From assembly GCA_006503475.1 (NCBI GenBank), contig RSEH01000113.1, positions 62,001 through 126,000 on the forward strand: DNA of 64,000 nucleotides. The letters run 5' to 3'. The notes under the pieces were generated by a model. That model ran no database searches and was not told where the DNA came from. It worked only from the letters and a program-made list of their open reading frames with translations. Every line of letters begins with the position of its first letter. Positions within the stretch are counted from its first letter, which is position 1. The position numbers and the translations under genes are program-made. Origin of the DNA: Stentor roeselii (taxonomy: Eukaryota; Ciliophora; Heterotrichea; Heterotrichida; Stentoridae). Below, one piece after another: positions 4,395 to 57,560 of the stretch.

Positions 4395-4806
4395 TGTTTA
4401 CAATATGGATTGTAGTATATTGGAATCATTTGGTGAATGTTTTAATTTATTGAATTTGTTGTTTATGTTTAAGGGTTTGGGGTGGTTTGTATTTGGGTTA
4501 TTTTGATGTGAATTTTGGGAAAATTTGAAAATTTTTATGGTTTGGTTTAAGTTTTTTAGGTTATTGTTAAATTAGGGAAATATGTTCATGTATTGTAGTC
4601 TTTACTTCTATAAATTCTAGTTTTATTAGAAAATAATGGAAGTTCAATTGAAAATTACTAAAATAATTGCATATTACAAGTAATCAAAAGAAAAAATCTC
4701 CATTTCCATCTTTTGTATCAATCTGCTTTTATAAAAATTTTTTTTTATATGAGTATATATCCATGTGGGTAAATTTTACTTTAATCAAGCTAGTTTATAT
4801 AGTAAA
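4395..4806. repeat. Intergenic stretch holding a decayed copy of the next gene's 3' end
   Basis: The AT-rich gap contains, at about 4637-4725, a degenerate copy of the last part of the minus-strand gene that ends at 4807. Read on the minus strand the copy gives KMEMEIFSFDYL, a stop, then YAII. The true gene end reads NMKMETFSFNYLCFAII. The copy lies about 165 bp beyond the real stop and is not open. The remaining DNA (4395-4630) is T/G rich on the + strand, the usual composition upstream of a minus-strand gene here. Confidence 0.6.
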
Positions 4807-5517
4807 TTAAGGAAATGCAACTAAAAGACTACTAGAAATAATTGCAAAACACAAGTAATTAAAAGAAAAGGTCTCCATTTTCATATTTCTAATCAAAAAC
4901 ACAAAATAGCAAGTCCACGGAATCAACATCAAAACCACCGCTTTTCTCCTATCTTCACTAATGCAATCTAAAAGAACTAAAGAATAAAACAAAATCTGAA
5001 GCAAAGTAAACATTTTATAACTTTCATATCTTCCTAAAGCCCTGGCAAGAGTTTTTTTATCATTTTTGATATCTTCTGAAAAACTACTGAGTTCTCGAAT
5101 AAGCATCCAAGAAAGAAACAAAACTTCAAAGTTCAATATCTTAAAAAAAACTTTAAAAAAATCCTTTTCCTGCAAATAAAAAAACATTCCAATCTGAGCC
5201 GTGATCAGATTCACTCCTCGAAGAAAAGTCTCAAAATTTCTCACAAAACCGATCATCTTATAAAAGACCCAAATCACCAAAAACTGCATCAAAAACCCAA
5301 AAACCTGAAAATTTTCTTGCATGTTTAAAAGAACCAAAGCAAAACCAAAGAACCAAGTAAAAAAAGTACAGTTTTTCACTAAAAAGGCAAAAATGACTAA
5401 AGCTCCAGAATGAATCACTAAGAATGCAAGCATATTCCAACTAATTCTGCAACAAAAGTACAGAAAAAGTGCCTGAACAGCTAAGACATGTAAAAACTCT
5501 TCAAAAAAGAACCTCAT
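4807..5517 (-). CDS. Multi-pass membrane protein, UbiA-prenyltransferase-like
   Basis: 236 residues, very hydrophobic and aromatic, with about seven probable transmembrane helices. A hydrophilic loop reads IRELSSFSEDIKNDKKTLARALG (about residues 140-162 in two overlapping blocks). This resembles the second Asp-rich loop of UbiA-type aromatic prenyltransferases (REx..D..D..KTL...LG), in which the Asp residues bind Mg-diphosphate. The first NDxxDxxxD loop is not visible, and the protein is shorter than the usual 280-300 residues, so it is either a divergent or degenerate UbiA member or a chance match. Localisation would be ER or mitochondrial membrane. A decayed copy of its 3' end lies just downstream. 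Confidence 0.4.
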   Translation of the reverse strand: MRFFFEEFLHVLAVQALFLYFCCRISWNMLAFLVIHSGALVIFAFLVKNCTFFTWFFGFALVLLNMQENFQVFGFLMQFLVIWVFYKMIGFVRNFETFLRGVNLITAQIGMFFYLQEKDFFKVFFKILNFEVLFLSWMLIRELSSFSEDIKNDKKTLARALGRYESYKMFTLLQILFYSLVLLDCISEDRRKAVVLMLIPWTCYFVFLIRNMKMETFSFNYLCFAIISSSLLVAFP

Positions 5518-5565
5518 TTATGTATTCTAATGATTAAAACATGATGATTTTTTACTCATTTTATA

Positions 5566-8334: not shown

Positions 8335-8351
8335 TTCAGGTAAATTTTTCT

Positions 8352-8512
8352 ATAATCTTGTTCGAACACTTTCATATGAATTCTTAGTAAAAATGGAAAA
8401 TACGAGGAATTGTCTTTCAAAAACTCATTTCTTCCATAATCTTATTTGAACACTTTCATATGAATTCTTAGTAAAAATGGAAAATACGAAGAATTGTCTT
8501 TCAAAAACTCAT
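8352..8512 (+). repeat. Tandem duplication of a gene's upstream region, start codon and first codons
   Basis: Two 77-bp copies, 8352-8428 and 8436-8512, differ at three positions. Each contains AAAATGGAAAATACG, so the upstream ATG (8393-8395) is a copy of the true start at 8477. The first copy's frame closes after about 18 codons. The gap separates divergent SKP1 and the 8477 gene. Confidence 0.92.
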
Positions 8513-10243
8513 AAAAATCTTAAACAGGTTGAAAGGAACCACTCAGCCTGTAGTACCCGGAAAAGGCTTCTTGACCAGGTCTTTGAAAAGGAAAGGTCCC
8601 AGTCAAGAAACAGTTCAGCTCCAAGAAAACCTGAATTCAAAACGATTTCAAAAAACTCAACAGTGACTCTCAAGACTTCCAAAGAAAACCTGAAAATTCA
8701 ATCAACTCAAACGAACCCAAAATACTCAAATGATAAAAAAAGTCGTTCTCGGTCACCTGCTTGTATAAAGAGAGACTTCAGTGAAGACTTAACAAAAACT
8801 CGCATTCTTCGAGACAAGAGTCTTGAAAAAAAAAGTCTTCCTCAGACTCGACCTGTCAAAAGGCCGGCTTCGACATCGAAACAAAACCCGCAGATTGAAA
8901 CTTTGACGAAGTTGGTTTCTCAGTTTTCCGTGCAGAAGATTCAGGTATTTTTCAAGTAGGATCTTAAAAATCTTGCTGTTGTTGGAAATGAAGATATCGG
9001 GAAAGTCTTGATTTTACTGTTGAAAGAAGTTGATCATCATTTACAGGACTTGAAAATCGTTTTTCCTGATATTTTGAATGAATATTTGACTAGCCCTGGA
9101 ATTGTTGTGCAAAGTATTAAAAATTTTAATGGGTTTCTTTTAGCTGGAAAGGTTCCGGAAAGTAAAGTTTATTTAGAGGTTTTTAGTAAGGCTCATGAAA
9201 TTTATGTCAAGGTTGAGGCGGTTAGTAATACTTTTGGACATCAACATTTGGTTAAATATTTGGAGAATGTTTTTAGGTTCAAAAAATTATCTACTAAGTT
9301 TATCAGATTTTTACAGCCTTTTGAAGTTGAGATTTTGAAACAGGAGAGGAAGGAAAGAATTGAAAAAGAGAAAATTGAAAAGGAAAAGTTAGAAAAAATA
9401 GAGAAGATTGAAAAGCAAACAATTCACTATCGTTCAATAACCCGATCAAAGCTCTGCCCATCAATTCCCAACTTTTCCTCTTCTCTAAAGCCTGAAGCCC
9501 TTTTAAAACCCGAGTTAAAAACCCACACAAAGACAGAAAGCTGCAGCATTCCATCAGACCACACAAAGCTCGAAATTCCCTCCAACAACTCCTTCGAAAC
9601 AACCGAAAAACTTGCAGATTCCTTCGACATCCGAGAGTCATTCCAAGACTCCAAAAAGTTCCTTCTCGACAAGTTCTTCAACAAAATGATAAACCCAGGT
9701 CTTCCCGGAAGTCTTCAAGAAAAGCTTCCATTAACTGAAGTGAAAAACCTGAACCTTGAAGACTGCAGAAGGGAAAAAGACTGCAAAAGTGCCAGTCGAA
9801 CTTCTTCGACTCCTCGTCCAGAGTCGACTTCAGAGCCTCGATCTTCAGAGTCCTCGAAAATGACTGAATCGAAAGGAAAACACGAGGAACTGAAAAGGAA
9901 AAATTTCATGGTTGGGACAAGATTTTATAAGAAAATCGATGAAAAATTTGTTAAGATGCTTGTGGAAAAAATGAAAAAGGATCCAAAAGAACTCGGAAAA
10001 TTGAAACTGAAAAGTTTAGAAGAATATTCTGAGAAAAAAACAGAGTTTATCAGGGCTAATAAAGAAATTTGGGTCAAGGAAATTGTTGATGTGTTGGTTG
10101 AAAGTGAAAAAGTGAATGATGAAAATGAAGCTATTCAGGCTATTAAGCAGAGTGCTTTGAATGAGTATTTAGGGCAAGAACGGGTAATCAAGACGATTGT
10201 TGCTCGGGCTGAACAGCTGGAGTCTTCATATCGTAAGCTTTAG
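8477..10243 (+). CDS. Hypothetical charged protein with coiled-coil segment
   Basis: Two exons joined by a 15-nt intron at 8945-8959; spliced length is 583 residues. Not recognised. The first 150 residues are Ser/Lys/Arg-rich and disordered. A compact helical region follows (about 155-280, around FPDILNEYLTSPGIVVQSIKNFN). Then come a Lys/Glu coiled coil (KEKIEKEKLEKIEKIEK), a Ser/Pro-rich linker and a C-terminal helical block ending in QLESSYRKL. This layout (disordered arms around a helical core) is common in ciliate cytoskeletal or basal-body proteins, but that is only a guess. The start lies in the second copy of a duplicated 5' end. Confidence 0.75.
8945..8959 (+). other. 15-nt intron
   Basis: GTATTTTTCAAGTAG, phase 0. 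It joins SVQKIQ to DLKNLAVVG. One of the two introns here that begin GTAT rather than GTAA. Confidence 0.9.
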
Positions 10244-10405: not shown

Positions 10406-11833
10406 TTACTTTCTATAATTATTCGCGATATTCTGAATATAATCAGTATTTTCTGAAGGTTCTTTTAAAACCTCTAAATTTAATCTTGGCAAAGCAGGAG
10501 CAGAGGGTGGTCTTGACATAGGCTGCAAGTTGCAAGAAAGTATTTCTTGCATTCTGTCCTCAACAACAGCCTGCAACTCCAAATAAAGGCTACTGACCAT
10601 GCTATTGATATTATGCTCCATTTCCTGCACGATAAACTGAGTGATCTGCTGCACCCTGGCTGTTACTTCTTCCTTTATTTGAAGAGTGCTGATTGTATCA
10701 AGTTTCTGGGAAAGTCCTTCAATTTCCATATCGATAAACTCATAAAGTTCGCTTTCAAGTTCTTCAGCTGTTTGGCAGGTCTCCTTGAAACCAGAACCTT
10801 TTATTGGAGCTTTGATTAGCTTGTCGTAAACTCGTCCGTAGTTTTGAGGAGGAAGTTTTGGAGGACCTCTCTTGGCGTGGACTGGCAGCTGCAGAGCCTG
10901 CAACTGATACTCAGGAGGAATATTCAATCCATTATTCCTGCAGTTTCCTTCCAAATCCGCCAGAAGTTTTCTTGCCATCGAGTTGTACATATCTTTAATA
11001 TGATGATTAAGATCACTAAGTGCATTTTCATAAAGTTTTTCATAGGCCTTGTTCATTTCAGTAGAAAGACTGCGTCTTAATTTATTCATGCAGTCCTCAG
11101 CAGCATGACAGGCAAGTGTAGTAGTACTAGCAGTGATATGTCTTTCAAGTTCATCCTTAAATTTAAAAAACTTTTCATCTCCTTTCTTTTCAAAATTACT
11201 AGAAACAAAAGCCGTAGGTGTTAAAGTCATTTTTTTCCCTTCAGATGTTTTAACAATTCGATTCTTAGAAGGTGTTATTTCTCGAGACTTAGAAGATTTA
11301 AGAGGAGACTTTGGCTTCTCAACCTTTGCCATCAGAAGGTCTCTGATTTCAGAAGACTTGCACCTTGAAACACAGTCCTTTCCAAACTAATTAGAACTTA
11401 CAGAGTCCTTATGCCTCGGATTCGCTCCGTTGTCCAAAAGGATTTTAACGACTTTAGCATGGTTGTGGTAAACTGAAATCATCAAAGGAGTCCATCCTCG
11501 CTGGTCATAAGCGTCGACTTCTGAACCACTTCGAATCAGGTCTAAAACTATCTCGTCGTGGTTGTACCAACAAGCCAGGAATAACACTGACTGTCCAGCC
11601 TGATTTTATTTTACGTTGTTTCTAGAGTTTTGGTCACTTCCTTGCTTTAGAAGCTCTTGAACTACTTCTGACTTTCCTGATTTCACTGCTAGGGCAAGCG
11701 CTGTGTAGCCTGAGTCGTTTTTTTGGTTGATTTGGGATTTGGGGATGTATTGACGGACTCTGGATAGGTTTCCTTCTTCAGCTGCCATCATTAGAGGAGT
11801 GTAGCCTCCTGTTACATATCCGAGTTTAGACAT
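10406..11833 (-). CDS. Ankyrin-repeat protein with C-terminal helical domain
   Basis: Three exons with introns at 11600-11614 and 11387-11401; spliced length is 465 residues. Residues 1-145 form about four ankyrin repeats (GYTPLMMAAEEGNLSRV, GYTALALAVKSGKSEVV, LFLACWYNHDEIVLDLI, GWTPLMISVYHNHAKVV with a closing DNGANPRHKD). After a short linker and a Ser/Lys-rich disordered stretch comes a mostly helical region from about residue 190, with coiled-coil character (EFIDMEIEGLSQKLDTISTL). Ankyrin repeats bind proteins; the partner is unknown. Without the second intron the C-terminal part could be mistaken for a separate gene starting at 11332. Confidence 0.82.
11387..11401 (-). other. 15-nt intron (ankyrin gene, second)
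   Basis: The minus strand reads GTAAGTTCTAATTAG, phase 0. It contains CTAAT, a good match to the branch sequence that pairs with U2 GUAGUA. It joins the ankyrin part (RHKDS) to FGKDCVSRC and the C-terminal domain. Confidence 0.88.
11600..11614 (-). other. 15-nt intron (ankyrin gene, first)
   Basis: The minus strand reads GTAAAATAAAATCAG and ends CAG. It joins NSRNN to AGQSVLFLACW, restoring the third ankyrin repeat. Confidence 0.9.
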
Positions 11834-12015
11834 TTATGATGAAAATTTATTATTCTTAGAGTTTTTTATTCAAGTTTTCAATAGTTTTAGAAAATCATTG
11901 AAAATTTATGGTTTAGATATTAATGATGAAAATTTATTATAATTGTTAGAGTTTTTTCTTAAAGCTTTCAATAGTTTTAGAAAATCATTGAAAATTTATG
12001 GTTTAAATATTTTTG
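11831..12015 (-). repeat. Direct repeat built from the ankyrin gene's 5' end
   Basis: A unit of about 87 bp starting at the gene's first codons (GTTTAGACATTTATGATG on the + strand, 11824-11840) is repeated at 11911-11928 as GTTTAGATATTAATGATG, and begins again near 12001. In the copy the start codon has become ATA. The repeats fill most of the gap to the divergent CK1 gene at 12130. Confidence 0.75.
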
Positions 12016-12129
12016 AATCAAGAGTTTTCGAATAATGATTTTGATAAATTTTCATGAATTCTAAATCTCTAGAAAATATCCTCGTTCAATAAAATCCAAA
12101 AATCCTCAATAATCACTAATTCTTTAAAA

Positions 12130-15329: not shown

Positions 15330-16440
15330 TGCAATAATACAATGATAAAGCTCTTTATTCTCAATGTTCCAAAAATAAACTTTTTTCTCTTCTACTCTAA
15401 AGCAGGCGATTTTTCTGTTTGTTGCGAACTTGACAGAATCAACATCACCTGCAAGACCTTCGAAAAGTAAAATTTCTTTAAAACTGAGCAAGTCCCACAA
15501 TCTGACAGTTGATTAAAAATCCCCTGAGATGGCCATTTTTTTATTCAAAATATCAACACAAAATACAGAATCCTGATGCTCACTCAGAAAGCGAAACTTG
15601 GAAGATTTCAAATTCAAGACAATCAAGTTTTCCTTCCCCCCTCCTGAGGCATTAATAACCAGATTCATACCTGGTAAAAGCTCGCTGCCTTAATCAACCG
15701 CTAAAGCTCTTCAGTGCACTTTTGTTCTTGGGATAATACCCTGTCTACATGATATTTATGAAAATCAAACTTATGGACTTTAGATTGTTTTTTTAGGTCT
15801 TGTCATTGGACCCGGATTTAAATCTTTATTTTCAGTTGTTGAAACTGAATTAATTCTTTTATATGACCTTAAGAGTTGCGTGGTGTGGTATTGGATCTGT
15901 TTTAACTTATTTTTCATCTGGACATGCTATTTTATATTTCTTGTTTAGCTTATAGTTATTGAATTGTGATTTAAATTATGGGCTTCTAAGCTCAGTATTT
16001 AAGTATATTAATCAATGACATCAAAATGGTTTCCAATATCTAAATAAAACATGTTTTTCAAGGCGATTAGCACACATCTTTAATTATTTGTCTCTCGCAC
16101 CGAGCTGATTCAGTATCCCAAACAAAATTTTCATAGTTTCCATTTCTGACACAATAAAACTAATGTTTTTTTGAGTTCAACAGCAAAAGCAGCTTCCAAG
16201 TGTTCAAAGTAAACCTCGCTAAAACATTCTTTCAAATATCCCAGTCTTATCCAAGATCCAGAAACTGCAAAAGCTCCATCTCTAGAAATATCTTAACATT
16301 AAACAGTGGATCTATGAATCAAACAAGTTAGCTTAGAACTAGTCTCAATATCCCAAATCCTGATAAAAGTATCTTCCAACCCAGTGAGAAGAGTCCATAA
16401 ATCAATTGACACTTTTAAACCCTTCGTTGTGAGACTCTTG
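15330..16440 (-). pseudogene. Decayed WD40-repeat gene
   Basis: In the 2.1-kb gap 14948-17075, two minus-strand stretches still read as WD40 repeats. 16440-16130 gives LEDTFIRIWDIETSSKLTCL, then two stops, then DISRDGAFAVSGSW. 15780-15330 gives HQDSVFCVDILNKKMAISGDF, a stop, STVRLWDLLSFKEILLFEG, then VKFATNRKIACFRVEEKKVYFWNIENKELYHCII and further stops. The WD dipeptides and blade spacing are unmistakable, but several stops, which are not explained by 15-nt introns, and lost frame between the parts show a dead gene. It may be related to the intact WD40 gene at 17076. The rest of the gap (14948-15330, 16441-17075) is AT-rich with nothing recognisable. Confidence 0.75.
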
Positions 16441-17075
16441 GAATTTTTTTTATATACTGCGCTTTGATTCTATTCGATTAGTAATGACTAGGAATAATTA
16501 TTCTAAAATTTAGGTAACATTGATTAGCATCTTTATAATAAGAAGATGAAGAAAATCCCAAGGACTATACTTAAACTTTACATTACTCAAAAAGCTAAAA
16601 TTATTAATTTTCATTTCTAAAATTTAACTTTTCAAATCACTTTCAAATTATTATCTATCTGATTCAGTATTTTCTTTGTAGAGATAAATTCCTTTTTTGG
16701 CCAGAGGATTTTACCAACTAAAAAAAAATATAATGTCTTACTTACTAGCGCACTGAAAATTGATAATCTTTTCTATCGAATAAGAATTTTTATGCATTAA
16801 AACTATGAATAAGCCACAAAAATCGCTTTCCATAGACTGATTATCGTACCAAGATCATAAGAATAACAAAATTTACAAAAATGCATTTCAAGTCTAAAAA
16901 ATGTCATCAGAGGATGACTATCAGATTTAAGACACAGATTATTTTATTTAATCTGAAATAATTTAAGAATTTGAACTTTCTTCAATATCTCTCATAAAAC
17001 TTGGATTAACTGGTAATCATCCTACCTCGATTTTGTGAATTTTGAAGTATTTATAGATGAAATACAATTATATAA

Positions 17076-20000
17076 ATGGACTTCTCTTTGGTTTATGAAG
17101 AAAACTTGCTAGAAAATGATAAAGTGCAAGATTTATCCAGAACAAATGATGAGATGTCAAACTTGGAGTGGATACCGAATTACTACTTACTTTATGAGGG
17201 AAATTCTGGAAAGTTATTTGAAAATAATAGCTCATGGCCAAAGAAGGGAGATAAGGGAGGATTTATTATTCAAAGACTGGCATTTTCTCCCTGTCAAAAA
17301 TATTTAGCAACATTTTGCAACTGGTCAATAAAAGTATGGGATATAGATGCGAAGACTAAAGCGTTTTCTATAAAATCTAATGAAATTGAGTTGAAGTTCA
17401 GATTTTTATTCAAAGATCATCAATATAAGTATTCTTCTGTATTTTCCTATTCCAAGGATGGAATTTTTTTAATAGCCTTTGATAACAGTTGTGGCCTGAT
17501 AGTATGGAATTTACAAGAGCGAAAAGTAGACTATTCAATTGCAGTAGATAAAAAAAGTATTTTATCATTATCTTTAGATCTTAAAAGATTAGCTATTGGG
17601 TTCGAAAACAATATAACAATCTGGAATTTATATACTAAAACCGAAGAATTAATTCTTCTAGAACGCCCATTTATTCAATTGCAACTTTCATCAGATTCTA
17701 AATACTTAATACTTTTAAATGATAAAAACAATCTAATCTATTGGAACATAAAAAAAAATATTGAAGAGTTTATCCTGAATATTCGGAGTCCTCCTCAAAA
17801 AAGCAGTTTCCCAAAACCTAAATTTTCAAATGATGGAAATTTTTTCTATATTTTATACCTTGAAGAAGAAATAAGCCAAACCTCACGCTGGCTTCAAGGC
17901 GAAGTTTTCCAAATCAATACTAAAATTTTGCTTTGGGATTTAGTCGAAAAAGTTGAAGTATTTTGTAGTGGAATTTTCTCAGACATAAACAATATTATCA
18001 TCCTTTTTTCACCTGATAGAAAATTTATTATCACTCAAAATAGTTATGATTATTCACACATATATAATTTAAAGACATCAAAAAATGAGTTAATTATTGA
18101 TACATCCTTTAATCATAAACAAATAAAGTTTTTAATGTTTTCACCTGATAGCAGTCGAATTTTAATAAATATTGGTGGAAATATTTCACTACGAAATCTA
18201 GAAAATTTAAAAAAGAAGTCAATAATAGATCTAAATGGTGCTTCAGCTGAATATATGGTGTTTAGTTCAGATAATCGACACATCGCCACAATAGGACCTC
18301 AAGAAGAAATAAAAATTTTAAATCTATTCAACTCAAAAACTTATTTGAATTTAAGCAAAAATTGTCAATCATCTTCTTTTCTTATAAACCCAAGATACTT
18401 AAATTACTTATCACAAAATAATAAACAAAAGTATAAACATCTTAATACTTTTGATTGTTTTCAATTGAAAAACCGTGCAAAACAGAATAATAAAAAAAAA
18501 TCAGATAAAAATTGGTTTGATAAAACAGAAAAGTTTTACAGAACTGATAACAATAAGCACTTTCATTATATAGACGAAATACATATTCAACAAAATAGAT
18601 TATTTGAAGTTAAAAGTAAAATTGAAAACTCAGATTGCGTTGGAAGCTCTGATTTGGTTGAAGTTCATGAATTATCCCAAACTGGAAAATTTTCATTGAT
18701 TCGATTCCAAAGGCTAACAGCGAAAATTTGGAATATTTATAAAAACTGTCAAGAGTTTCCACCAAAAGAAAATTCTGACGTTTTAAGATGCTTAGCACTT
18801 TCTTCTAATCTTCAAATCGCTGTAGTCCAATGTGTTGATGGAGTTATAAGTGTTTGGAACATCTCTGAAAAAAGAGCAGAGTTTACATTAGATCAGACAT
18901 TTCCTATTATTTACACTTCTCTTTCTGTTAACGGAGAATTTGTTTCCATTCAATATGAAAACGGAGTTCTGAGTGTTTGGAATGTGAAAAGTAAAGAGGA
19001 AGAAATAAAGTTTTGTGATAAAAAAATTCAATCTTTTGAGTTCAGCCCTGATGGAAAGTTGTTTTCAGTGGCTTTTAGAGATGGTATAAAAATATTTAAT
19101 TTGATACAAAGAGTAGAAGAGAATTTTATTGTGTATGATGAAAGTTTTCAAATTTTTAGACATAAATCGCTCTTGTTTTCAACTTTTGGAAGGTTTTTAG
19201 CGATAAGGTTTAAAAATCAAGCTATAAAGGTTTTGAACTTGAATGATATGACAGAAATTATGATAAAAGATATAGGTCAATATCAACATTCAGTCTTTAG
19301 TCCAGATGACAAATTTTTAGCAATTTCATTTAAATCAGAAGTACCCAATCAAAATTTATCTACTATTGCACTTTGGAACCTTCAAACAAGTACTCAAGAT
19401 CATTTTTGGAATTTTGAAATGGAAGTGAGAAAGTTTTCTTTTACATTATTTAATAAAATCGTTCTATCTCTCAATGATGTGTTGGTTTATTTGGACTTGA
19501 AAGACAAGAAAGTGCTGAATACAAAAATAAAGACTTTTGGAAATTGTGAAGATATTTATATTTTTCCAAAAGAAAAAAGATTGACTGCAGTTTCTATTAA
19601 TGGAGTAGTTTCATTTGATTTTCAAAAGTCTGAAAAAGAGGAATTTTACTTTGATTTGATGGAAAATGATACAAATTACATACTAAATGAAAAAACTGAA
19701 TCGTTTTCTATTTCAAGTGATGGACAATATATATTAATGAAGACTTGGAAATACTGTTTTGAAATCTGGAATATGCAAAACATTAGAAGACAATCAATTA
19801 TAAATGATTCATTTAAGAGATGTAGTGATTTTAAATTTTCTCATGATGAGATGATCATGGTATCTCATTCAAGAGATGATAAAGTTATTTATATATGGAA
19901 TGTAGCAGATTGGAGCATTAAATTTATTCTCAATAGTCAAAATAATCATATTTCTTTTTATTTTTCTGACATGAATTTCTTTCTTGCATCAATAGGTAAT

Positions 20001-20300
20001 GATTTTACAGAAATATGGAATTTAAATGATAAGAGTCTCTCCTTAACAATTAATGATACTTTATTGTCGATAACCTTTAGTCCAGACAGTGCGTTTTGTG
20101 TCGCAGGCTCAAATAAAGATATAAAAATATTTAGTATTCAAACTAAAAGAGTTATAATGAAACTGCTATACCAAATAACCCCATTGAAATTATCATTTAC
20201 TCATAAAGGTCAATTTTTATGGTTATTAAGCTATGATGCAACATTTAAAATTTCATTTTCGAACAAATATAGGTTGATTGAAAATTCCTATAGATATTAA
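17076..20300 (+). CDS. Large WD40-repeat protein
   Basis: 1074 residues without an intron. Blades recur through the whole length: SIKVWDIDAKTK, GLIVWNLQERK, NITIWNLYTKTEE, KILLWDLVEK, GVISVWNISEKRA, GVLSVWNVKSKEE, CFEIWNMQN, VIYIWNVADWS, FTEIWNLND and others, each preceded by FSPD-type strands. At least 14 blades imply two propellers. No other domain is visible. Ciliates and bacteria use such proteins as scaffolds or sensor halves of STAND ATPases, but no NTPase domain is present here. Codons are markedly more A/T rich than in flanking genes. Start ATG follows TATAA. Confidence 0.85.
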   Translation: MDFSLVYEENLLENDKVQDLSRTNDEMSNLEWIPNYYLLYEGNSGKLFENNSSWPKKGDKGGFIIQRLAFSPCQKYLATFCNWSIKVWDIDAKTKAFSIKSNEIELKFRFLFKDHQYKYSSVFSYSKDGIFLIAFDNSCGLIVWNLQERKVDYSIAVDKKSILSLSLDLKRLAIGFENNITIWNLYTKTEELILLERPFIQLQLSSDSKYLILLNDKNNLIYWNIKKNIEEFILNIRSPPQKSSFPKPKFSNDGNFFYILYLEEEISQTSRWLQGEVFQINTKILLWDLVEKVEVFCSGIFSDINNIIILFSPDRKFIITQNSYDYSHIYNLKTSKNELIIDTSFNHKQIKFLMFSPDSSRILINIGGNISLRNLENLKKKSIIDLNGASAEYMVFSSDNRHIATIGPQEEIKILNLFNSKTYLNLSKNCQSSSFLINPRYLNYLSQNNKQKYKHLNTFDCFQLKNRAKQNNKKKSDKNWFDKTEKFYRTDNNKHFHYIDEIHIQQNRLFEVKSKIENSDCVGSSDLVEVHELSQTGKFSLIRFQRLTAKIWNIYKNCQEFPPKENSDVLRCLALSSNLQIAVVQCVDGVISVWNISEKRAEFTLDQTFPIIYTSLSVNGEFVSIQYENGVLSVWNVKSKEEEIKFCDKKIQSFEFSPDGKLFSVAFRDGIKIFNLIQRVEENFIVYDESFQIFRHKSLLFSTFGRFLAIRFKNQAIKVLNLNDMTEIMIKDIGQYQHSVFSPDDKFLAISFKSEVPNQNLSTIALWNLQTSTQDHFWNFEMEVRKFSFTLFNKIVLSLNDVLVYLDLKDKKVLNTKIKTFGNCEDIYIFPKEKRLTAVSINGVVSFDFQKSEKEEFYFDLMENDTNYILNEKTESFSISSDGQYILMKTWKYCFEIWNMQNIRRQSIINDSFKRCSDFKFSHDEMIMVSHSRDDKVIYIWNVADWSIKFILNSQNNHISFYFSDMNFFLASIGNDFTEIWNLNDKSLSLTINDTLLSITFSPDSAFCVAGSNKDIKIFSIQTKRVIMKLLYQITPLKLSFTHKGQFLWLLSYDATFKISFSNKYRLIENSYRY

Positions 20301-20595
20301 TGATTCATATATACTAAAAGATCTTATGAATGAATAAAGTTAGAACTAGATAGTAAGGAATGATTCCCGAAGGTTGGTATAGTTATCATTCAAATCTTCC
20401 AGGTAATATTTTAAGTTTCAGTATTACTCTATGCTATTTTTTTTATATCAAAACTGCCTGCAATAAACTAAAGTGATAAATATATAACTTGTTGTTTGAA
20501 CAAGAATTTGAATCAATTTATTAAAAATAGACCTTAATGATGATATATATCTTTATCTAGTAGAATGGTTTCTTGAGTCAAACAAATTATGCTAT

Positions 20596-21915
20596 ATGCT
20601 AGACGAAAATTTGGCAAATCTTGTTAGACAAAAGGAAAATATTAAAGAAATTTTTGATGATTCAGTTATAGCTTTAAAATTGTTTGAATACGATAATCAT
20701 TATTACAAAAGCAAGTGCAAGTCTACTAAAAAATTCATTGAAATAGCATCAAAATTATTTATTGATTACTCTATTACAAAGCATAGTCATCTTGCTCTCT
20801 TACTATCAACATATATATTACAATTTGCAAAAATAGGCATAAATTTGAATTATCTCAATTTCCATGCTTGTAAAATTTTAATAAATTATTTAAATAACGT
20901 GAAAGTCTTAGAAGAATATGTAGGTGACAACTACAATTTTCATATTTTGAATTATTTGATCGGATCTATCAATGAAATTGAAGTAATTAACATACTAAAA
21001 GAGCACAAATATCAGTTAACTTTAATTTCTTATTCAAAATCTAAAGAACTTCAGAAATCAGTTAATCCAAACCCTCAGAAAAAAATCAAAGAAGAAAATT
21101 TACTGTATAAAAATTTCTATAATACAATAAATGAAAACTTCTACGATATCCAATACTTCAAGTCCAATTACTACACAAGAAAAGTAATAATAAAAAAGTA
21201 TTTACTTCTCTCTGATATTTCTCAAGAAACCAAAGAATCATTAATGAAAATTTTCCAAAAAGAAGCGAAATGTAATGAAATACTTAAAAACACAATCTGC
21301 AACTATCAAGGTTTTATTCAATCTAAAAACAGCTTTTCTTTAGTCATTGAAGATAATGGGATAACTCTTCATGAATTTCTAATAAAAAATCGTACCAGCA
21401 GAGTTATAAGGAACCATTTACATGGAAATTGGGACAAAATGAAGACAATTTATTATTTAATCCAATATTTTGCCTTTGCAGCTGAAAAAAATATTCTACA
21501 TAGATGGATTTGTCCTTCATCATTAATTATGAACGAAAATCATATCATAAAAGTTACTGATTTTATTTTTGCATCGATTAAAACTGGTGATTTTTGGGAT
21601 ACTACTGAAAAGACACTGCTTCCAAAATTTCCTGAATTTTACAGATCACCTGAAGAAGAAAATTTTCAAGGGGAAAAATTAGATTTAGAGAAATGTGATG
21701 TTTATTCTTTGGGTCTTGTTATACTTGAAATTATTTGTTTAGAAGAAATTTCTAAGATAAAACAAAGCCTTGACTTTTATTTGAATCAAGTTAAAGAATA
21801 TAATCAAGGCAGCATCTATGAATTATTAAAGAATATGCTGTGTGAAAGACCTCAAGATCGCTTAAGTCTAAGAGAAATATCATATTTAAATTTCTATAAA
21901 TCATATGAAGACTAA
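20596..21915 (+). CDS. Protein kinase-like protein, probable pseudokinase
   Basis: 439 residues. The C-terminal half (about 170-435) follows a protein kinase C-lobe: ILHRWICPSSLIMN at the catalytic loop, VTDFIFA at the DFG position, FPEFYRSPEE at the APE position, DVYSLGLVILEIICL and RPQDRLSLREISYLNF. The catalytic HRD Asp is Trp (H302-R303-W304) and DFG is DFI (322-324), so phosphotransfer is unlikely. An N-lobe VAIK Lys is not clear; EDNGITLHEFL marks the hinge. The N-terminal 160 residues are helical and unrecognised. Same AT-rich codon style as the WD40 gene upstream. A short missing 5' exon cannot be excluded. Confidence 0.75.
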   Translation: MLDENLANLVRQKENIKEIFDDSVIALKLFEYDNHYYKSKCKSTKKFIEIASKLFIDYSITKHSHLALLLSTYILQFAKIGINLNYLNFHACKILINYLNNVKVLEEYVGDNYNFHILNYLIGSINEIEVINILKEHKYQLTLISYSKSKELQKSVNPNPQKKIKEENLLYKNFYNTINENFYDIQYFKSNYYTRKVIIKKYLLLSDISQETKESLMKIFQKEAKCNEILKNTICNYQGFIQSKNSFSLVIEDNGITLHEFLIKNRTSRVIRNHLHGNWDKMKTIYYLIQYFAFAAEKNILHRWICPSSLIMNENHIIKVTDFIFASIKTGDFWDTTEKTLLPKFPEFYRSPEEENFQGEKLDLEKCDVYSLGLVILEIICLEEISKIKQSLDFYLNQVKEYNQGSIYELLKNMLCERPQDRLSLREISYLNFYKSYED

Positions 21916-33782: not shown

Positions 33783-33936
33783 GGCAGTTTATGGAATATT
33801 AAGATTTTTAGTAGAGGAAATTTTAAGTGGAGGTAGGTGGATTGAAATTAAGAATTATGACAGTTTGTGAAATATTAAGATTTTTAGTAGAGGGAATTTT
33901 AATTTGAGGTAGGTGGATTGAAAACTAAGAATTAAT
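33780..33936 (-). repeat. 76-bp direct repeat starting at a start codon
   Basis: Copy 1 (33781-33856) and copy 2 (33857-33934) share ATGRCAGTTTRTGRAATATT, then TTTTTAGTAGAGG and GAGGTAGGTGGATTGAAA. Copy 1 begins exactly at the complement of the ATG of the 33782 gene; in copy 2 the CAT has become TAT. A third copy begins (ATGACT) near 33935 but fades. Confidence 0.75.
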
Positions 33937-42852: not shown

Positions 42853-43860
42853 ATGGGCTGCGATCAAAGTGCCTGCAGTGAGTTACCTGATTCCCTAAAC
42901 TCAGACCTAATTCTCAAGAATCCCTCTCAAATCTCCCAGATGAACGACAAGTCAACAAACCTTTCAAACAACTCACTAACCCAACGAGAAGCAGATTCAA
43001 AGACCTATCAACCTCTTCTCTCTCTAATCGAATACTATTTAGAAAGTAATTCAAACTACTCCGATCTCTTAAAACTAAGTCAAATCTGGCTTCACGAGTT
43101 GATTTTTTTCCTAAACCATTCAAATCTAAGTCCAGACAACATAAGAACAACTTTAACTCTCGATTCATGCGGAAAGTCTCTTCACATTCGACATGAAGTT
43201 GATGGAATCACTACTTTCGAGTTCATCAAATTCGTATCCGCGAAATTTTCTCTGATATTCCAAAAAGATATCAAAGACTTACACGAAATCGAAAAAAACT
43301 TGAAGTCTCTTCATTCATTAACCTGCATTTTTTACATTCGACTTGGAGAAAACTTCGATTTTGGCTTTGGGGTTGAAAAAATGCTGGATTTAAAACAACT
43401 CACATTTGAAAAATCTGAAGATATCTGCAGGATTATTGAATGGAATAATCAAAACAATCAACCAGTTCCGACATCGGTTTTAGTTTCAGTTTTAGAAAAC
43501 ACGAAAATTATCAATTTTTACATTTTTGATGGATTTCGAAGGCAAAATGTTGAAAAAGCTTTTGCGTTGTTTCAGATGTTTGGAAGACCTTTGATGTATA
43601 AAGCGGAAGAGTTGTTTAATTCGGGGTTTTGTGATGATGTTAACTGCTCGGTTTTGATTCGAGATGGAAGGGTGGAAAAGGTTTGTCTTCAGGTGCATTG
43701 CAATGTCGTTAGCTTGGAAGTAGTGAAAAGTCTGGGTTTTTATGTTGATGAGATCAAGTGGGACGAGGTGAGGACGAAAGGAATCTTTCGCGGTCTTGAA
43801 CTGGAGATGAATTCAGAAGGGTACTCATTGAGTCAGGTGTTACTATATTATCCTAATTAA
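42853..43860 (+). CDS. Hypothetical protein with acylation-type N-terminus
   Basis: 335 residues. MGCDQSACSE at the N-terminus fits N-myristoylation (Gly2) with palmitoylatable Cys3 and Cys8, so membrane attachment is likely. The remainder has no named domain. It is a mixed alpha/beta protein, with SCGKSLHIRHEVDGITTFEF near 110-130, FYIRLGENFDFGFGVEKML near 165 and a strand-rich C-terminus (VLIRDGRVEKVCLQVHCNVV). Its last codons and TAA are the seed of a downstream tandem array. Confidence 0.65.
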   Translation: MGCDQSACSELPDSLNSDLILKNPSQISQMNDKSTNLSNNSLTQREADSKTYQPLLSLIEYYLESNSNYSDLLKLSQIWLHELIFFLNHSNLSPDNIRTTLTLDSCGKSLHIRHEVDGITTFEFIKFVSAKFSLIFQKDIKDLHEIEKNLKSLHSLTCIFYIRLGENFDFGFGVEKMLDLKQLTFEKSEDICRIIEWNNQNNQPVPTSVLVSVLENTKIINFYIFDGFRRQNVEKAFALFQMFGRPLMYKAEELFNSGFCDDVNCSVLIRDGRVEKVCLQVHCNVVSLEVVKSLGFYVDEIKWDEVRTKGIFRGLELEMNSEGYSLSQVLLYYPN

Positions 43861-44490
43861 AGAGAACTTAATTTTCATTACAAAAACTTGAAATTTTTCT
43901 TATAAGGTAAGAGAAAGGTAGTCATTGTTACTATATTATCCTAATTAAAGAGAACTTAATTTTCATTGAAATTTTTCTTATAAGGTAAGAGAAAGGTAGT
44001 CATTGTTACTATATTATCCTAATTAAAGAGAACTTAATTTTCATTGAAATTTTTCTTATAAGGTAAGAGAAAGGTAGTCATTGTTACTATATTATCCTAA
44101 TTAAAGAGAACTTAATTTTCATTGAAATTTTTCTTATAAGGTAAGAGAAAGGTAGTCATTGTTACTATATTATCCTAATTAAAGAGAACTTAATTTTCAT
44201 TGAAATTTTTCTTATAAGGTAAGAGAAAGGTAGTCATTGTTACTATATTATCCTAATTAAAGAGAACTTAATTTTCATTACAAAAAACTTGAAATTTTTC
44301 TTATAAGGTAAAGAGGAAGTGTACTCATTGAGTTAGGTGTTACTAAATTATCCTAATTAATATCATTACAAAAACCTTGAAATTTTTTTTATAAGATAAA
44401 GAGGAAGGGTAGTCATTGAGTCAGGTGTTAATATATTATTCCGAAATAAAGAGAACTTAATTATCATTACAAAAACCTCGAAATTTCTCT
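43838..44490. repeat. Tandem array made from the 3' ends of two convergent genes
   Basis: Eight units carry TTATCCTAATTAA or a variant, ending at 43860 (the gene's own stop), 43948, 44026, 44104, 44182, 44260, 44360 and about 44449. Spacing is 88, then four of 78, then 100 and 89 bp. The 78-bp units are near identical. Each unit starts with the last codons and TAA of the + gene. Each also contains CATTACAAAAAC or CATTGAAATTTTTCTTATAAG, matching the last codons and TAA of the minus-strand Kelch gene (44467-44500). The ancestral unit was thus the convergent 3'-end junction itself. Confidence 0.93.
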
Positions 44491-45384
44491 TATCAAGTAA
44501 AGTGGAAGAGGAATTTTCCACTCTGCGAATTTTAAAGTAAATAAAAAAACCTTTTTTCTCTTCCAGATCTTTTTGTAAAATAATTCAAATTCTGCTTCTT
44601 TTTTCAGTTTTAACCAACTAACCTGGTGCAAATCGCCACGATGGTCCATAAGACTTAAAGTCTCCTGTTGAACAGTCCAAGACCAAAACATTTCAACGAA
44701 ATTAAACCCTTTTAACACCTTGCGAGTGAGACTTTTCGCATTAAGCACATTAACCTTATTGTTAAACTTGCAGTCCTTCAGCCAGCCCCCAAACAAAACA
44801 ACGAATTTTTCCTGAAAAGCGATTAAAACAGGCCTAATCGCAGGAATCGCATTTTTTTCTTGTCCAATAGTCCACTTCTTATCTTCCAAGTCATAAAAAA
44901 AAACATTTTCATTGTATCTTCCTTGAGCTTTATACCCTCCTCCTACAAAAATCTTGTCACCAGCGACACAAGTTGAGTGAAGTTTTACTGGAAAAGGCAT
45001 TGAACAAAGTAAAACACTTTCCATTGAAATCGTGTCAAAGACTTCAACTAAATCAGTCAACGAGTTGTTGTCAGAACCTCCCAGGGTGTAAATTTTTTGG
45101 AAGTGAATACAACTTGAATGAGAAGTTCTTAAAAAAATCATTTTTCCGATAATTGTGGAACAGTCTTCAAGATTTGATGATGAAGTGACTAAAGATTTCA
45201 AGTCTATCAAAAAAATATCAGGGGATAAAATTGTCGAGGCTTGACCTCCGAGAATGTAGAGAAAATTTGAATCGATTACTATGGCTGGATGGAAAATTTT
45301 CATTGATACTCGAATTGTGTGACTTCCGTGGTATATGAAAAGATCGCCGCCGAGTACTCTGAATAAGTAACTCGAACTGTTCAT
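44467..45384 (-). CDS. Kelch-repeat protein
   Basis: 305 residues. Kelch blades with GG pairs: FLYILGGQAS, QKIYTLGGSDN, DKIFVGGGYKAQGRYNENVF and EKFVVLFGGWLKDCKFNNKV, with matching DLVEVFDT and FFYDLEDKKW strands, spanning about 1-230. This is a partial or five-bladed propeller. The basic C-terminus (LFYKKIWKRKKVFLF) is separate. Kelch propellers bind actin or substrates of ligases; partner unknown. The stop is part of the tandem array downstream. The start is 5 nt from the divergent SEC24 ATG. Confidence 0.8.
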   Translation of the reverse strand: MNSSSYLFRVLGGDLFIYHGSHTIRVSMKIFHPAIVIDSNFLYILGGQASTILSPDIFLIDLKSLVTSSSNLEDCSTIIGKMIFLRTSHSSCIHFQKIYTLGGSDNNSLTDLVEVFDTISMESVLLCSMPFPVKLHSTCVAGDKIFVGGGYKAQGRYNENVFFYDLEDKKWTIGQEKNAIPAIRPVLIAFQEKFVVLFGGWLKDCKFNNKVNVLNAKSLTRKVLKGFNFVEMFWSWTVQQETLSLMDHRGDLHQVSWLKLKKEAEFELFYKKIWKRKKVFLFTLKFAEWKIPLPLYLIREISRFL

Positions 45385-52351: not shown

Positions 52352-54196
52352 TTACAAGTCCTTATAAAAACTCTTTTCCATTAATTTGTCCTTCGCCGCG
52401 ACTCGAGGTAAAGAAATCGCTTTTCCATCAGGAAGACTTTTAAGCCAAGCCGAGTCGATTTTTCTTGGAGACTCTTTCTGGCAAAAACGACTTTTCAATG
52501 AAGTTTCAGGAGTTTCGCAGTGTCTGCGACCTGTTCGAGCTGCTCTTTCTGAATAACGATTCGCGTATTCGATCACTTCAGGGTTTTCACTGAGACTTCT
52601 ACTTGCAGCTTTAAATGAGTATTCCTCGACTATCGCCCTGAAGAGCTCTTGATGTCTTCTAACTTCTTCATATAAAACTAAGTTTTCTCGCTTTTGGTCT
52701 GATATCAGGTCAACTAATGGAGAGTTCAAGTTTTTCACTTTTAATGAAAAATCTGAGAAATTTGATTCTGTTGTTTTTATGTTTCTTTCTACTGAATTTG
52801 CTAGATTTTCAAGGTCTTTCGCTACTTTTGATTTAAAATCGTCGAAAGTCTTTAAGTTGATGATGATTTCGTTGATTTTTTCTTTGTAGAACTTTTTGAA
52901 AAGATGTGTTTCTGAAGAAATTTTTTCTAGGTCGGTCTCGAGGATTATCAGTCTTTTAAACTTTTCTTCGATTTTCTTGTCGATTGATTCAAGGTCTTTA
53001 CGGGAAAGTTTTGAAGGAGAAGTTTCTTTTGGCTTTGATTTTTTGTCAAGACCATTACGGCGAAGAGCTCGGATGAAGGAAGTTTCCATCGTTTGGAGGG
53101 TGTTGTGCATGTTTTTTATGTTGTTTTCTAGCTCGTCGATGTAGGATTTACTGCTGTTTAAGTTGTTTTCGACGATTTTTGTGTAGCTTTTTGAGTCTTC
53201 TAAATCGGTTCGGGTTGTTTCGAGTTCTTTTTGAAGGGAGATTAGTTTACGGTTTATTTGCTTTAAACCTCCTGCTCCTAGAGTGCGACTGGCAGCGATA
53301 CTTGACTCTTTACTCCCCCTCCTCTGCATAGTTTTCGAGTCTCCCCCAATAGAGCTTCCTCTAGCCCGTGACTGTCTCGAGACAGGTTTTTCAAATTCTC
53401 TAATTTTCGGACTTTCAGTTTTTTTATCCTCAACAAAATGATCCAAATTATTCGTCTCGACCCTGAGCGAGACATCACTTTTAGCAACCACAGAAGTTTC
53501 AAGGTCCGGACTGGTACTTTGTTCAACTTCCGCTTCATTCGATGCAGTTTCTTCCCTCTTCGCAACGACATCAATATCCTCCATCATATTATCCATTTCC
53601 TCCTGACTATCATACTCATCATCTTGCATAGCATCATCTTCCATAAACAATTCTTCAAGTTTCTGCTCCATCACTACAAGTTTATTCTTCATTTGAGCGA
53701 AGTCTTCATTATTCACCTCAAGTGACTTTGACTCACTTGCTTTGCTGGCAAGTTCAAGTTTCATCTTCGTCTTGAAACCTTCAAAGTCAGAATAAATGTG
53801 TTTGTCAACTCTGGACTGAAGAAGAGAGACTTGTTGAGAAATCGAGGAAAATTGACTCCAGCCTACTTTTGTTTGAAGAAGATGGTCAAAAGTCTCATTT
53901 GATACTTTTTGGTCGAGTTGGTTGCAGAAGATTTGAGAAAAATCGTTGAACTTTTGACTTAGAAGTTTTTCTATTGTTGATAGAAAGTCCTCGAGTTTTA
54001 AGGAGAGGAAGGAAGAGGTTATGAATGATGAACATGAAATGCGTAAGTGATTTAGGTCTTGCTCGTATTTTTCTAGCTGGTGCTCGATTTTCTCTGACTT
54101 TTGAAATGCGGTTTTTACCATTTCGAGTTGGTTTACAGCGTCTGCTATTGAGATCTTTGATGATGTGATTTTAGAGATTTCGTTGGATAACTCCAT
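52352..54196 (-). CDS. Coiled-coil protein
   Basis: 614 residues. Coiled coils at about 15-190 and 325-520, separated by an acidic, Met/Asp/Glu-rich linker (DDAMQDDEYDSQEEMDNMM) and a Ser/Arg/Gly-rich stretch (RQSRARGSSIGGDSKTMQRR). The C-terminus (520-614) is Arg-rich with SERAARTGRRHCETPE. No motor, EF-hand or membrane segment is seen. Long coiled-coil proteins of this kind abound among ciliate basal-body and cortical fibre proteins; that is only a general expectation. Confidence 0.7.
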   Translation of the reverse strand: MELSNEISKITSSKISIADAVNQLEMVKTAFQKSEKIEHQLEKYEQDLNHLRISCSSFITSSFLSLKLEDFLSTIEKLLSQKFNDFSQIFCNQLDQKVSNETFDHLLQTKVGWSQFSSISQQVSLLQSRVDKHIYSDFEGFKTKMKLELASKASESKSLEVNNEDFAQMKNKLVVMEQKLEELFMEDDAMQDDEYDSQEEMDNMMEDIDVVAKREETASNEAEVEQSTSPDLETSVVAKSDVSLRVETNNLDHFVEDKKTESPKIREFEKPVSRQSRARGSSIGGDSKTMQRRGSKESSIAASRTLGAGGLKQINRKLISLQKELETTRTDLEDSKSYTKIVENNLNSSKSYIDELENNIKNMHNTLQTMETSFIRALRRNGLDKKSKPKETSPSKLSRKDLESIDKKIEEKFKRLIILETDLEKISSETHLFKKFYKEKINEIIINLKTFDDFKSKVAKDLENLANSVERNIKTTESNFSDFSLKVKNLNSPLVDLISDQKRENLVLYEEVRRHQELFRAIVEEYSFKAASRSLSENPEVIEYANRYSERAARTGRRHCETPETSLKSRFCQKESPRKIDSAWLKSLPDGKAISLPRVAAKDKLMEKSFYKDL

Positions 54197-54673: not shown

Positions 54674-54696
54674 AAAATTCTGTTAATTAAGAAGGG

Positions 54697-54887
54697 AAGG
54701 GTGAGCCACCTCTTGAGGTTAGTGCAATACAAGGGCGACTCATTGCAAGGTTCTCAGCCAGCCGAGAATCTCTCGCTCCCATCAAGAAATTAATGTGAAA
54801 TACGCCACTCAGTAGAGTGGATACCAGTTTTCACACTGATAAGAACAGATACTACACTTGATCTTAGCCAAAAAGCCGAGAAGGTAT
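54697..54887 (-). ncRNA. U2: U2 spliceosomal snRNA
   Basis: The minus strand begins ATACCTTCTCGGCTTTTTGG and continues CTAAGATCAAGTGTAGTATC and TGTTCTTATCAG, nearly identical to the 5' domain of all U2 RNAs, including the GUAGUA branch-site recognition element. Next come a stem-loop CCACTC-TACT-GAGTGG (IIb), an Sm-like site AATTTCTTG, stem-loop III TTCTCGGCTGGCTGAGAA, and stem-loop IV ending in TTGTATTGCACTAACCTC and GGTGGCTCACCC. Length is about 191 nt. The 5' end is placed by alignment to U2; the 3' end after CACCC is approximate. U2 selects intron branch points; here it must work on 15-nt introns. Confidence 0.96.
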
Positions 54888-55495
54888 GAAAGTAAATCTT
54901 TTTACTAGTTTAAGTAGTCTTTTTTTTCTTTTTTAATATGGGAGCCTTATATTAAAAATGTCTAAATCGAAACTCAAATTTAAAAATCATCTTTTACAAA
55001 TTCACTGGCTTGCTGGCACTGTAACCAAAATTTAATAAACTTAGAATATACATTCGAAAGTAGGTTATAAAAGAATTAATATTTCAAAATTATATTTTTG
55101 CATGAATTTGGTTTAAATCCTAATATCGGTGTTTTATAATTACTTTAGCTTAAGATTATTTGATTCTGTCCTGAAAAGTCTGCATTAGAAATGTGAAATA
55201 TATAAAATAATATAGAATTAACTAAAATAATAGTAATCTCTATTCATCACAATTAGTGCAGATCTTTGAATCTCACCTTAGTAAAACATGATAAAGTGAT
55301 AAATAGATTAAAACAAATTATTTGATAATATCAATTCTACCATCTCTAATTTCAACTACAAAAAATCACAAAAAAACCCTTTTCCTCTAAAATCAAAAAA
55401 ATCCTGATATTCTTTACCCTCATAAAAATGAGAAAATGATCGATTAATAAATATTCTAAAAACCAAAAATAATCCTCCAAACTTCCCAAATTAAA
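54888..55495. promoter_or_regulatory. U2 upstream region and AT-rich spacer
   Basis: About 100 bases upstream of U2 on the minus strand contain an A-rich tract and GGCTCCCATATTAAA (complement of 54943-54957), candidate snRNA promoter elements; no conserved element could be proven. The rest (55000-55495) is AT-rich with nothing recognised. Confidence 0.35.
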
Positions 55496-56995
55496 TCAAT
55501 TAATTCTAAAATTACCACAAAAAGCATCTCCCTCATTAGCATTTTCCATAAAATCCATCAACTGCTGAGCATGATTCTGAATCCTAAGATTCCGACTAAG
55601 TACCAATTTTTGCACTTTCTCATAAAACCCCGACAAGTTCATCAAATGAACAACTTCAAATCGATCATTGACCTTTAAACTCGAGTAAACTTTAATCAAC
55701 GTTTCAATTAACTTAAAAGTCAATTCTCCTTCAATAAAATTGCTTAAAAACCCAGAAGCTTCTTTTAAAAACCCGATATTAATCAAAGCCCAGACACTTT
55801 CATGCTTTCCAAGAGAAGCGATATTAAAAACACTAATAATTGCTTCTTTTCTGATGTTTTCATCACAGTCATTGACCGATTTGATGATTTTCATGAGAAT
55901 AGGATGAGCGACAATGATTGCGATTTGATTTCGAGTGCCTGCCGATAAGTTGCTAAGAGTCCAGCAGAGATACTTCTTGATTTTCGAGTTTCCTGAAAAA
56001 CTCTCGAAAAGTTTGTAAAGCTTGTCAAGGATTTCTCTATCAAAAAGTGCCTGAGTCTCTTCAACAGTCCCTGCTGAGATGTTTCCGACTGACCGTAAAG
56101 CAGGTAAAATTACTTTCGGATTAGAAGAGTCTAGTGACTTGATTATAAAATGAAAACATTTACTTTTCACTAACTGGGTAATGTTGTTACTTTTATCAGT
56201 GATCAGAGATAACGCCCAGAGACTGTGAATAAAAATCTTTTTGTTTTTTTGCCTTAAAACTGAAGACAGGGTGTTAAGGACCCTGCTTAACAACCCTGCC
56301 TCAAGCGAGTCTTTCCCTTCTAAAACATTTCTCAAGGTCCAGATGATCAGTTCTTGAAGACCTGGAAACTGTTCAAATATTTCCAGTAAGACTAAAACAG
56401 TCCCTTTTTTTATCATCTTTTCTCGTAACTTCAAACTGTCAACTGACAAGTTGCTTAAACACCAAATCGCATTTTCTACAATGTTTACATCGAAGTGACC
56501 GAGAAGATTTATGCAGAAGTCGTCAATGTTCTGCAAAAGCAAATCACTTGTTATAAACTCTGGACCTGAGGAAAGACTTTGAATGCAAAGAAGAGTCGCT
56601 TGGAACTCTTCTGAAGACTGAGGCATTGATTTTAAAGTTTCTGATAAAGTCTTTACTAGACCTAGTTCTTTTGAAAGCTTTAGTGAAAGGCTTCGGTCCT
56701 TTTGTTTCATTTTAGAGTGAAGGAAAAGCACTGTTGTTAGGAAAAAAGAAGACTCTGGACCTTCTTGTAGAGTTTTTTTGATGTTTTGGAAAGTTTCACG
56801 TGTTGTTGGAACCGGGCTTTCGATTGAAGTGGTTTCTGAGGCTTTTTGACGCTTTTTTGTGATGAAGTCTTTTCGTTTTTGCTTGCGGAGAGAAATTGCG
56901 AAGGTTTCTGGCTGGTGGAGAGTTGAGCTGGTTGATAAGAAGTTTTGGTTGCGGGCTTGAAGTCTCTCTAGAGTGAAAAAAGCATTTAGTGCCAT
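55496..56995 (-). CDS. Importin-alpha-like armadillo protein
   Basis: 499 residues. The N-terminus has a basic importin-beta-binding-like segment (LRKQKRKDFITKKRQK at about 36-51). From about 85 to 480 there are ARM repeats with the importin-alpha Trp/Asn ladder: VENAIWCLSNLSVDS, LQELIIWTLRNVLEG, FIHSLWALSLITDKS, VILPALRSVGNISAGT, IKKYLCWTLSNLSAGT and IRKEAIISVFNIAS. Importin-alpha carries NLS cargo with importin-beta. Several ladder positions are changed, so this is a divergent paralogue. The first codons have been copied repeatedly into the upstream gap. Confidence 0.85.
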   Translation of the reverse strand: MALNAFFTLERLQARNQNFLSTSSTLHQPETFAISLRKQKRKDFITKKRQKASETTSIESPVPTTRETFQNIKKTLQEGPESSFFLTTVLFLHSKMKQKDRSLSLKLSKELGLVKTLSETLKSMPQSSEEFQATLLCIQSLSSGPEFITSDLLLQNIDDFCINLLGHFDVNIVENAIWCLSNLSVDSLKLREKMIKKGTVLVLLEIFEQFPGLQELIIWTLRNVLEGKDSLEAGLLSRVLNTLSSVLRQKNKKIFIHSLWALSLITDKSNNITQLVKSKCFHFIIKSLDSSNPKVILPALRSVGNISAGTVEETQALFDREILDKLYKLFESFSGNSKIKKYLCWTLSNLSAGTRNQIAIIVAHPILMKIIKSVNDCDENIRKEAIISVFNIASLGKHESVWALINIGFLKEASGFLSNFIEGELTFKLIETLIKVYSSLKVNDRFEVVHLMNLSGFYEKVQKLVLSRNLRIQNHAQQLMDFMENANEGDAFCGNFRIN

Positions 56996-57560
56996 ATCTT
57001 AGTATATTATTTTAGTTAGAGGGGAATTTCTTCGAATATGCAAAGGGAAATGATGAATGAACTTTGATTTAGAATCTGATTAAGTCTCTTTAGAGTGAAA
57101 AAAACATTTAGTGCTGTATCTTAGGATATTATTTTAGTTAGAGGGGAATTTCTTCAAATATGCTAAGAAAAATGATGAATGAACTTTTATTAAGAATCTG
57201 ATTAAGTCTCTTTGAGTGAAAAAAACATTTAGTGATATAAATTAGTATATAATGTGACTTGAGAGGGAATTTCTTCAAATATGTAAAATAAATTTATGAA
57301 TTAACTTTGATTAACAATGTAATTTAACTCTCTTTAGAGTGAAAAAACATTTAGTGCCATATCTTAGTATATTATGTGACTTGAGAGGGAATTTCTTCAA
57401 ATATGCAAAGTAAGTGATGAATGAACTTTGAATAACAATGTAATTAATTCTCTTTAGAGTGAAAAAAAACATTTAGTGCTATATCTTAGTATATAATATG
57501 ACTTAGAGGGGAATTTCTTCAAATATCTAAACTAAAATGATAAATGAATTTTGATTTCCC
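56965..57560 (-). repeat. About five tandem copies of the importin-alpha-like gene's 5' end
   Basis: A unit of about 120 bp begins in the coding region. The complement of ATGGCACTAAATGC and TTTTTTCACTCTA (56969-56995) recurs near 57092, 57213, 57336 and 57456, each followed by TTAGTATATTAT or variants, GAGGGGAATTTCTTC and AAATATGCAAA. The ATG is retained in some copies, but each copy's frame is altered. Confidence 0.88.

Follow-up and report, generated by a model that had tools for sequence, protein, structure and literature searches.

The DNA analysed here, in the following called the window, is a stretch of 64,000 nt (bases 62001–126000 of contig C18) from an assembly of 44.4 Mb in 522 contigs. 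The window is eukaryotic, as it carries a U2 spliceosomal RNA, and its genes include POP1, a Ras-family GTPase, a tubulin-tyrosine ligase family protein, ALG6/ALG8 and Sec23/24. Within and between these genes lie short direct repeats (Table 1). An initial annotation had described six spacers with copies of the adjoining gene's own end and a seventh repeat beginning at a start codon, and had proposed a recurrent process that creates new spacers as well as extra start or stop codons from gene termini. We find that the copied gene ends are a real pattern with an ordinary cause. It is highly likely that they result from ordinary short tandem duplications which arise irrespective of gene ends and are then sorted by selection.

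Table 1. Repeat arrays and other features of the window (TRF, Tandem Repeats Finder; the lag scan is described in the text)
Position	Strand	Feature	Evidence
4634–4896	-	Decayed near-tandem copy (4634–4721) of the 3' end (4808–4896) of gene 4807–5517(-)	Alignment score 79; lag about 175 bp; lag-scan cluster 4661–4896
8344–8512	+	84-bp unit, two copies, holding the 5' end of gene 8477–10243(+)	TRF, 94% matches
11824–12016	-	About two copies of an 87–90-bp unit, divergent spacer	TRF 11824–12011, 90 bp, 2.1 copies, 90% matches
32781–33110	-	116-bp unit, about three decayed copies, across the 5' end of gene 32148–32870(-)	TRF, 2.8 copies, 76% matches
33781–33939		76-bp unit, 2.1 copies, divergent spacer	TRF, 89% matches
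40620–41067		Array of a 61-bp unit entirely within a spacer; missed by the initial annotation	TRF and lag scan
43838–44510		Array of a 78-bp unit	TRF 43838–44502; lag scan
56960–57580	-	122-bp unit, five copies, across the 5' end of gene 55496–56995(-)	TRF 56960–57570, 85% matches
62860–63072		Weak array, lag 39 bp, entirely within a spacer; missed by the initial annotation	Lag scan, 32 bits
1510–1664	+	54-bp in-frame tandem duplication within the POP1 gene 295–2385 (Pfam POP1 domains)	TRF and lag scan
54696–54887	-	U2 spliceosomal RNA gene in the spacer between genes 52352–54196 and 55496–56995	Rfam RF00004, 142.6 bits, full length

The tested sample comprised 324 kb (0.7% of the assembly), namely the window and 26 stretches of 10 kb (L009–L034) from the same assembly, one stretch per contig save for C18, with two of the stretches flanking the window. 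Direct repeats with lags of 30–400 bp were scanned for with gene positions ignored, and the raw hits were merged into clusters with 28 bits as the main threshold. At this threshold the scan yielded 145 raw hits, and three dinucleotide-shuffled controls gave 0, 3 and 0. These hits form 30 repeat clusters of at least 28 bits, of which 13 are within genes, 10 cross a gene end and 7 are in a spacer. Beyond the window the arrays are rarer, with three end-crossing and five spacer-only clusters in 260 kb. The units of the non-coding arrays measure 36–175 bp (median 81 bp); 12 of the 16 units fall between 50 and 125 bp and the remaining ones are 36, 39, 49 and 175 bp long. The median spacer is 86 bp (n = 213). 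Genes were modelled with our own codon-based finder, which was trained on the same data with 15/16-nt introns and used no transcripts. The finder misses small or unusual genes, so that some of the spacers longer than 1 kb may contain genes, and in one case it erroneously called a 96-bp gene (54687–54782) on the U2 RNA.

The copied gene ends themselves are well supported. When each spacer was compared with the adjoining 150-bp gene end, 7 of 292 comparisons reached a score of at least 50, six of them in the window in five spacers, while none of 5660 pairings with the ends of other genes and none of 189 with the adjoining gene's own middle did so. Tandem or near-tandem direct copies are present at all seven places named by the initial annotation, and a clear piece of the gene end is included at five of them. 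At the other two the overlap with the gene is slight: the array at 11824 includes just 10 bp of gene 10406–11833(-), the array at 33781, which has its edge at the start codon of gene 33132–33782(-), just 2 bp, and the spacers of both arrays score below 30 in the comparison with the adjoining ends. The copy at 4634–4721 is evident from alignment although TRF reports no array there. Recurrent duplication at differing ages has lengthened spacers here from adjoining DNA, as had been proposed.

The copies are local and in direct orientation. At a score of at least 38, direct copies are found in 8 of 292 comparisons, inverted copies in 0 of 292 and copies of the gene's far end in 0 of 246; at a score of at least 34 the respective figures are 9/292, 1/292 and 0/246. 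Five units of the window were searched against the whole assembly, and all five match at their own locus only. This search skips very common words and scores the best candidates only, and the arrays at 4634, 8344, 40620 and 62860 were left out of it. There is hence next to no chance that the arrays represent a dispersed repeat or a small transposon family which happens to adjoin genes: we found no evidence for such a family, the five searched units (four window arrays being outside the search) are each confined to their own locus, and the units include the adjoining gene's own codons. Copying by way of mRNA is also disfavoured, as the copies we detected adjoin one another in direct orientation and as units include the ends of two neighbouring genes in two arrays. 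One of these is 43838–44510, which takes in two 3' ends, those of the convergent genes 42853–43860(+) and 44467–45384(-); the other is an array at 3127–3485 of L027 in which the left neighbour's stop and the right neighbour's start are duplicated.

It is extremely improbable that the copies were added in assembling a repetitive stretch. The number of copies in 43838–44510 is possibly miscounted, as five 78-bp copies at 43888–44279 are 100% identical, but six of the seven TRF arrays of the window have only 76–94% matches, a divergence that no assembler invents. The array at 43838 has in addition decayed copies towards its right edge, and its spacer measures about 11 bp once the array is collapsed.

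The question whether gene ends are favoured was addressed with a null model in which each array was collapsed to one copy and its unit then placed anywhere touching the same spacer. From the 17 non-coding arrays 16 could be tested; one was dropped as it has no closed spacer. With uniform placement 9.58 of the 16 arrays (standard deviation 1.54) are expected to cross a gene end at 28 bits, and 10 do so. At 24, 26, 28 and 32 bits the observed counts are 13/20, 12/18, 10/16 and 10/15 against 11.2, 10.2, 9.6 and 9.3 expected, and at 36, 40 and 60 bits they are 7/14, 6/13 and 5/11 against 8.0, 7.2 and 6.4. Between 24 and 60 bits the pooled count therefore stays within about 1.1 standard deviations, lying above the expectation when the threshold is low and below it when it is high. 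If lags shorter than 45 bp are excluded, 9/16 arrays cross an end against 9.75 expected, and 6/13 against 7.25. Arrays spanning both gene ends amount to 2 of 16 (1.36 expected). Of 32 array edges, one is no more than 2 bp away from a gene terminus (0.65 expected), so that there is nothing unusual about the repeat at 33780/33781, which had been singled out for beginning exactly at a start codon.

These counts bear directly on the proposal that a process aimed at termini, such as breakage tied to transcription where genes start and end, copies gene ends and thereby creates new spacers. Since uniform placement in the same spacers predicts the counts, we do not regard terminus-targeted copying as the leading reading and consider it distinctly unlikely. 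In its favour, seven of the nine non-coding arrays of the window cross a gene end, and the density of arrays at ends is about twice that in mid-spacer and that of in-frame duplications in genes. Nevertheless, the null model expects 5.83 of the nine in the window, and for the other loci 3.75 of seven with three being observed; the single edge at a terminus likewise speaks against such aiming. Per 10 kb of placements there are 3.3 arrays at ends, 1.5 in mid-spacer and 1.7 in-frame within genes, where only the in-frame third was counted (rates for a single unit length of 85 bp, with seven spacer arrays counted including the one that lacks a closed spacer). The in-frame genic rate thus equals that of mid-spacer, while the higher rate at ends is not significant against in-frame genic positions (P = 0.11); for all non-coding against in-frame genic positions, P = 0.47. 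The initial annotation had named as its own refutation that copies are no more frequent at gene ends than within genes or in mid-spacer; in the 0.7% of the assembly sampled this is largely what we observe.

Several observations weigh against a placement that is wholly indifferent to genes and uniform along the genome. If all spacers are used for the null model, 6.7–8.9 of 17 arrays are expected to cross an end (P 0.08–0.39, the range reflecting the inclusion or omission of very long spacers), and therefore an end bias of up to about twofold may be compatible with the counts, though none is demonstrated. At 40 bits the loci outside the window depart in the other direction, as 0 of 5 arrays cross an end against 1.88 expected (standard deviation 0.91), which is a deficit and not an excess. 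In addition, 9 of the 17 non-coding arrays lie in the window, which contributes 22% of the sampled spacer bases (P = 0.005), and so do 7 of the 10 end-crossing ones, against a share of 22.5% of the spacers (P = 0.002); both P values are post hoc because the window was chosen for this very pattern. A TRF search of 304 kb gives the same picture: of seven end-crossing arrays six belong to the window, and the only other one has a unit of 22 bp. A uniform rate does not predict this enrichment, and a local hot spot is possible. A variant combining these points would have tandem duplication favoured about twofold at gene ends, perhaps by transcription-linked breaks, and acting as a main source of new spacer DNA in this ciliate-like genome with its tiny introns, with regional hot spots of which the window is one. 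We regard this variant as rather unlikely.

Periods of the repeats within genes are divisible by three in 13 of 13 cases at 28 bits (6e-7 if random) and in 22 of 22 cases at 26 bits, and we read this as selection on the reading frame. Two points weigh against that simple rule: at 24 bits it holds for 34 of 36 genic periods and fails for two, and some of the repeats within genes may be protein repeats of long standing. Two predicted genes of the sample harbour long in-frame arrays, one at 5482–6380 of L026 with a best period of 147 bp and one at 5578–7571 of L012 with a best period of 378 bp and an additional lag of 114 bp; all three values are multiples of three.

Eight extra copies could be aligned to the start of a gene, and three of them retain the start codon: 1/1 for the start at 8477, 0/1 at 11833, 1/2 at 32870 and 1/4 at 56995. 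Rows reaching no further than the edge of the gene itself were not counted, nor was a match of score 23 whose ATG, at 34075, lies beyond the 33781 array. Copied start codons thus mostly decay. The suggestion that the process serves to make extra start and stop codons is not supported. That copied ends are retained as a reserve of start codons, stop codons or promoters is very improbable. The youngest start copy, the upstream one in 8344–8512, does keep an in-frame ATG at 8393, but a stop codon closes its frame after only 18 codons, and the codon aligned with the stop of gene 4807 in the decayed copy is TTA, so that no stop is left. The 43838 array carries an intact copied TAA in 7/7 copies for gene 42853–43860 and in 3/3 fully aligned copies for gene 44467–45384, four more being partly aligned; these intact stops say little because five of the copies are identical.

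Taken together, we prefer the explanation that short tandem duplications arise without regard to gene ends in a gene-dense genome. Since spacers (median 86 bp) are hardly longer than the units (median 81 bp), gene ends are bound to be copied. If a duplication takes in a start or a stop, one complete copy would stay on the gene and the other would be pushed into the spacer. Such a duplication would be harmless and hence tolerated, and the surplus copy would decay as spacer. Most duplications within genes would be purged, as the divisible-by-three rule suggests, and some arrays would later be amplified by slippage or unequal exchange. By analogy with other eukaryotes, the first step is probably the fill-in and end joining of staggered breaks.

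The arrays belong to a known class, the short tandem duplications and minisatellites. Minisatellites have homogeneous centres and decayed edges. The array 43838–44510 with five identical central copies and decayed outer ones resembles them; on the other hand, the present arrays are AT-rich and those other than 43838–44510 have mostly two to five copies. Work by Vaughn and Bennetzen in 2014 and by Messer and Arndt in 2007 is said to have dealt with short tandem duplications. Short tandem duplications from break repair occur in rice, mouse and human cells (PMC7971508, PMC8355091), and in mouse and human cells breaks with 3' overhangs give tandem duplications by fill-in and subsequent end joining (PMC8355091). 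The arrays described here are like these duplications in that the copies are direct, adjacent and locally unique, that the units are mostly 49–122 bp and that there is no insertion element. They differ in that the duplications of those accounts are new insertions between strains and the present arrays are accumulated traces in one assembly. Since most of the copies have diverged, their exact junctions are hard to locate. A narrow literature search found nothing on gene-end duplication in compact genomes, and we do not claim that the pattern is unpublished.

With respect to its introns of 15–16 nt, its compactness and its AT-richness the genome is ciliate-like and resembles that of heterotrichs. 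Among 60 introns predicted in 304 kb, 52 are 15 nt and 8 are 16 nt long, the finder having permitted only these lengths. One intron is supported by protein sense: excising 15 nt from the glycosyltransferase gene 24399–25619 brings back a conserved-looking reading. The compact macronuclear genome of Blepharisma stoltei is likewise AT-rich and gene-dense with short intergenic regions and 15–16 bp introns, and has 41 Mb as compared to 44.4 Mb here (PMC9942806). UGA is read as tryptophan in B. stoltei (PMC9942806), whereas the code of the present genome looks standard. Translating TGA as tryptophan would keep the frame copied at 8393 open, but we rejected this reading: the likelihood falls from 17139 to 16821, and the read-through TGAs are mostly near gene ends, the exceptions being mainly short predicted frames with many TGAs. 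In the 324 kb, TGA ends 21 of 205 closed genes and TAG 59; in spacers TGA outnumbers TAG (3420 vs 2180, both strands) despite being the rare stop.

A few further features of the sample may be mentioned. The region 16000–24000 of the window is AT-rich (GC 0.28–0.31 vs about 0.35), contains a long WD40-repeat gene and a protein kinase gene, and adjoins a spacer of 2.1 kb. At 28476–30320(+) a single open frame joins a short N-terminal stretch, which has a weak match resembling ubiquitin-conjugating enzymes under the Pfam cut-off, to an ALG6/ALG8 glucosyltransferase; two genes may be fused here, or a tiny spacer or intron may have been missed. The stretch L032:1–10000 (contig C150) is unlike the remaining sample, with a predicted coding fraction of 0.18 and a GC content of 0.27.

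Our results mean that a compact genome can gain spacer DNA without special machinery. Duplications that include a spacer and gene edges are among the survivors, and thus gene ends appear to be copied. Before it is claimed that duplications seek gene ends, a simple null model based on the collapsed spacer length and the unit length should be applied.

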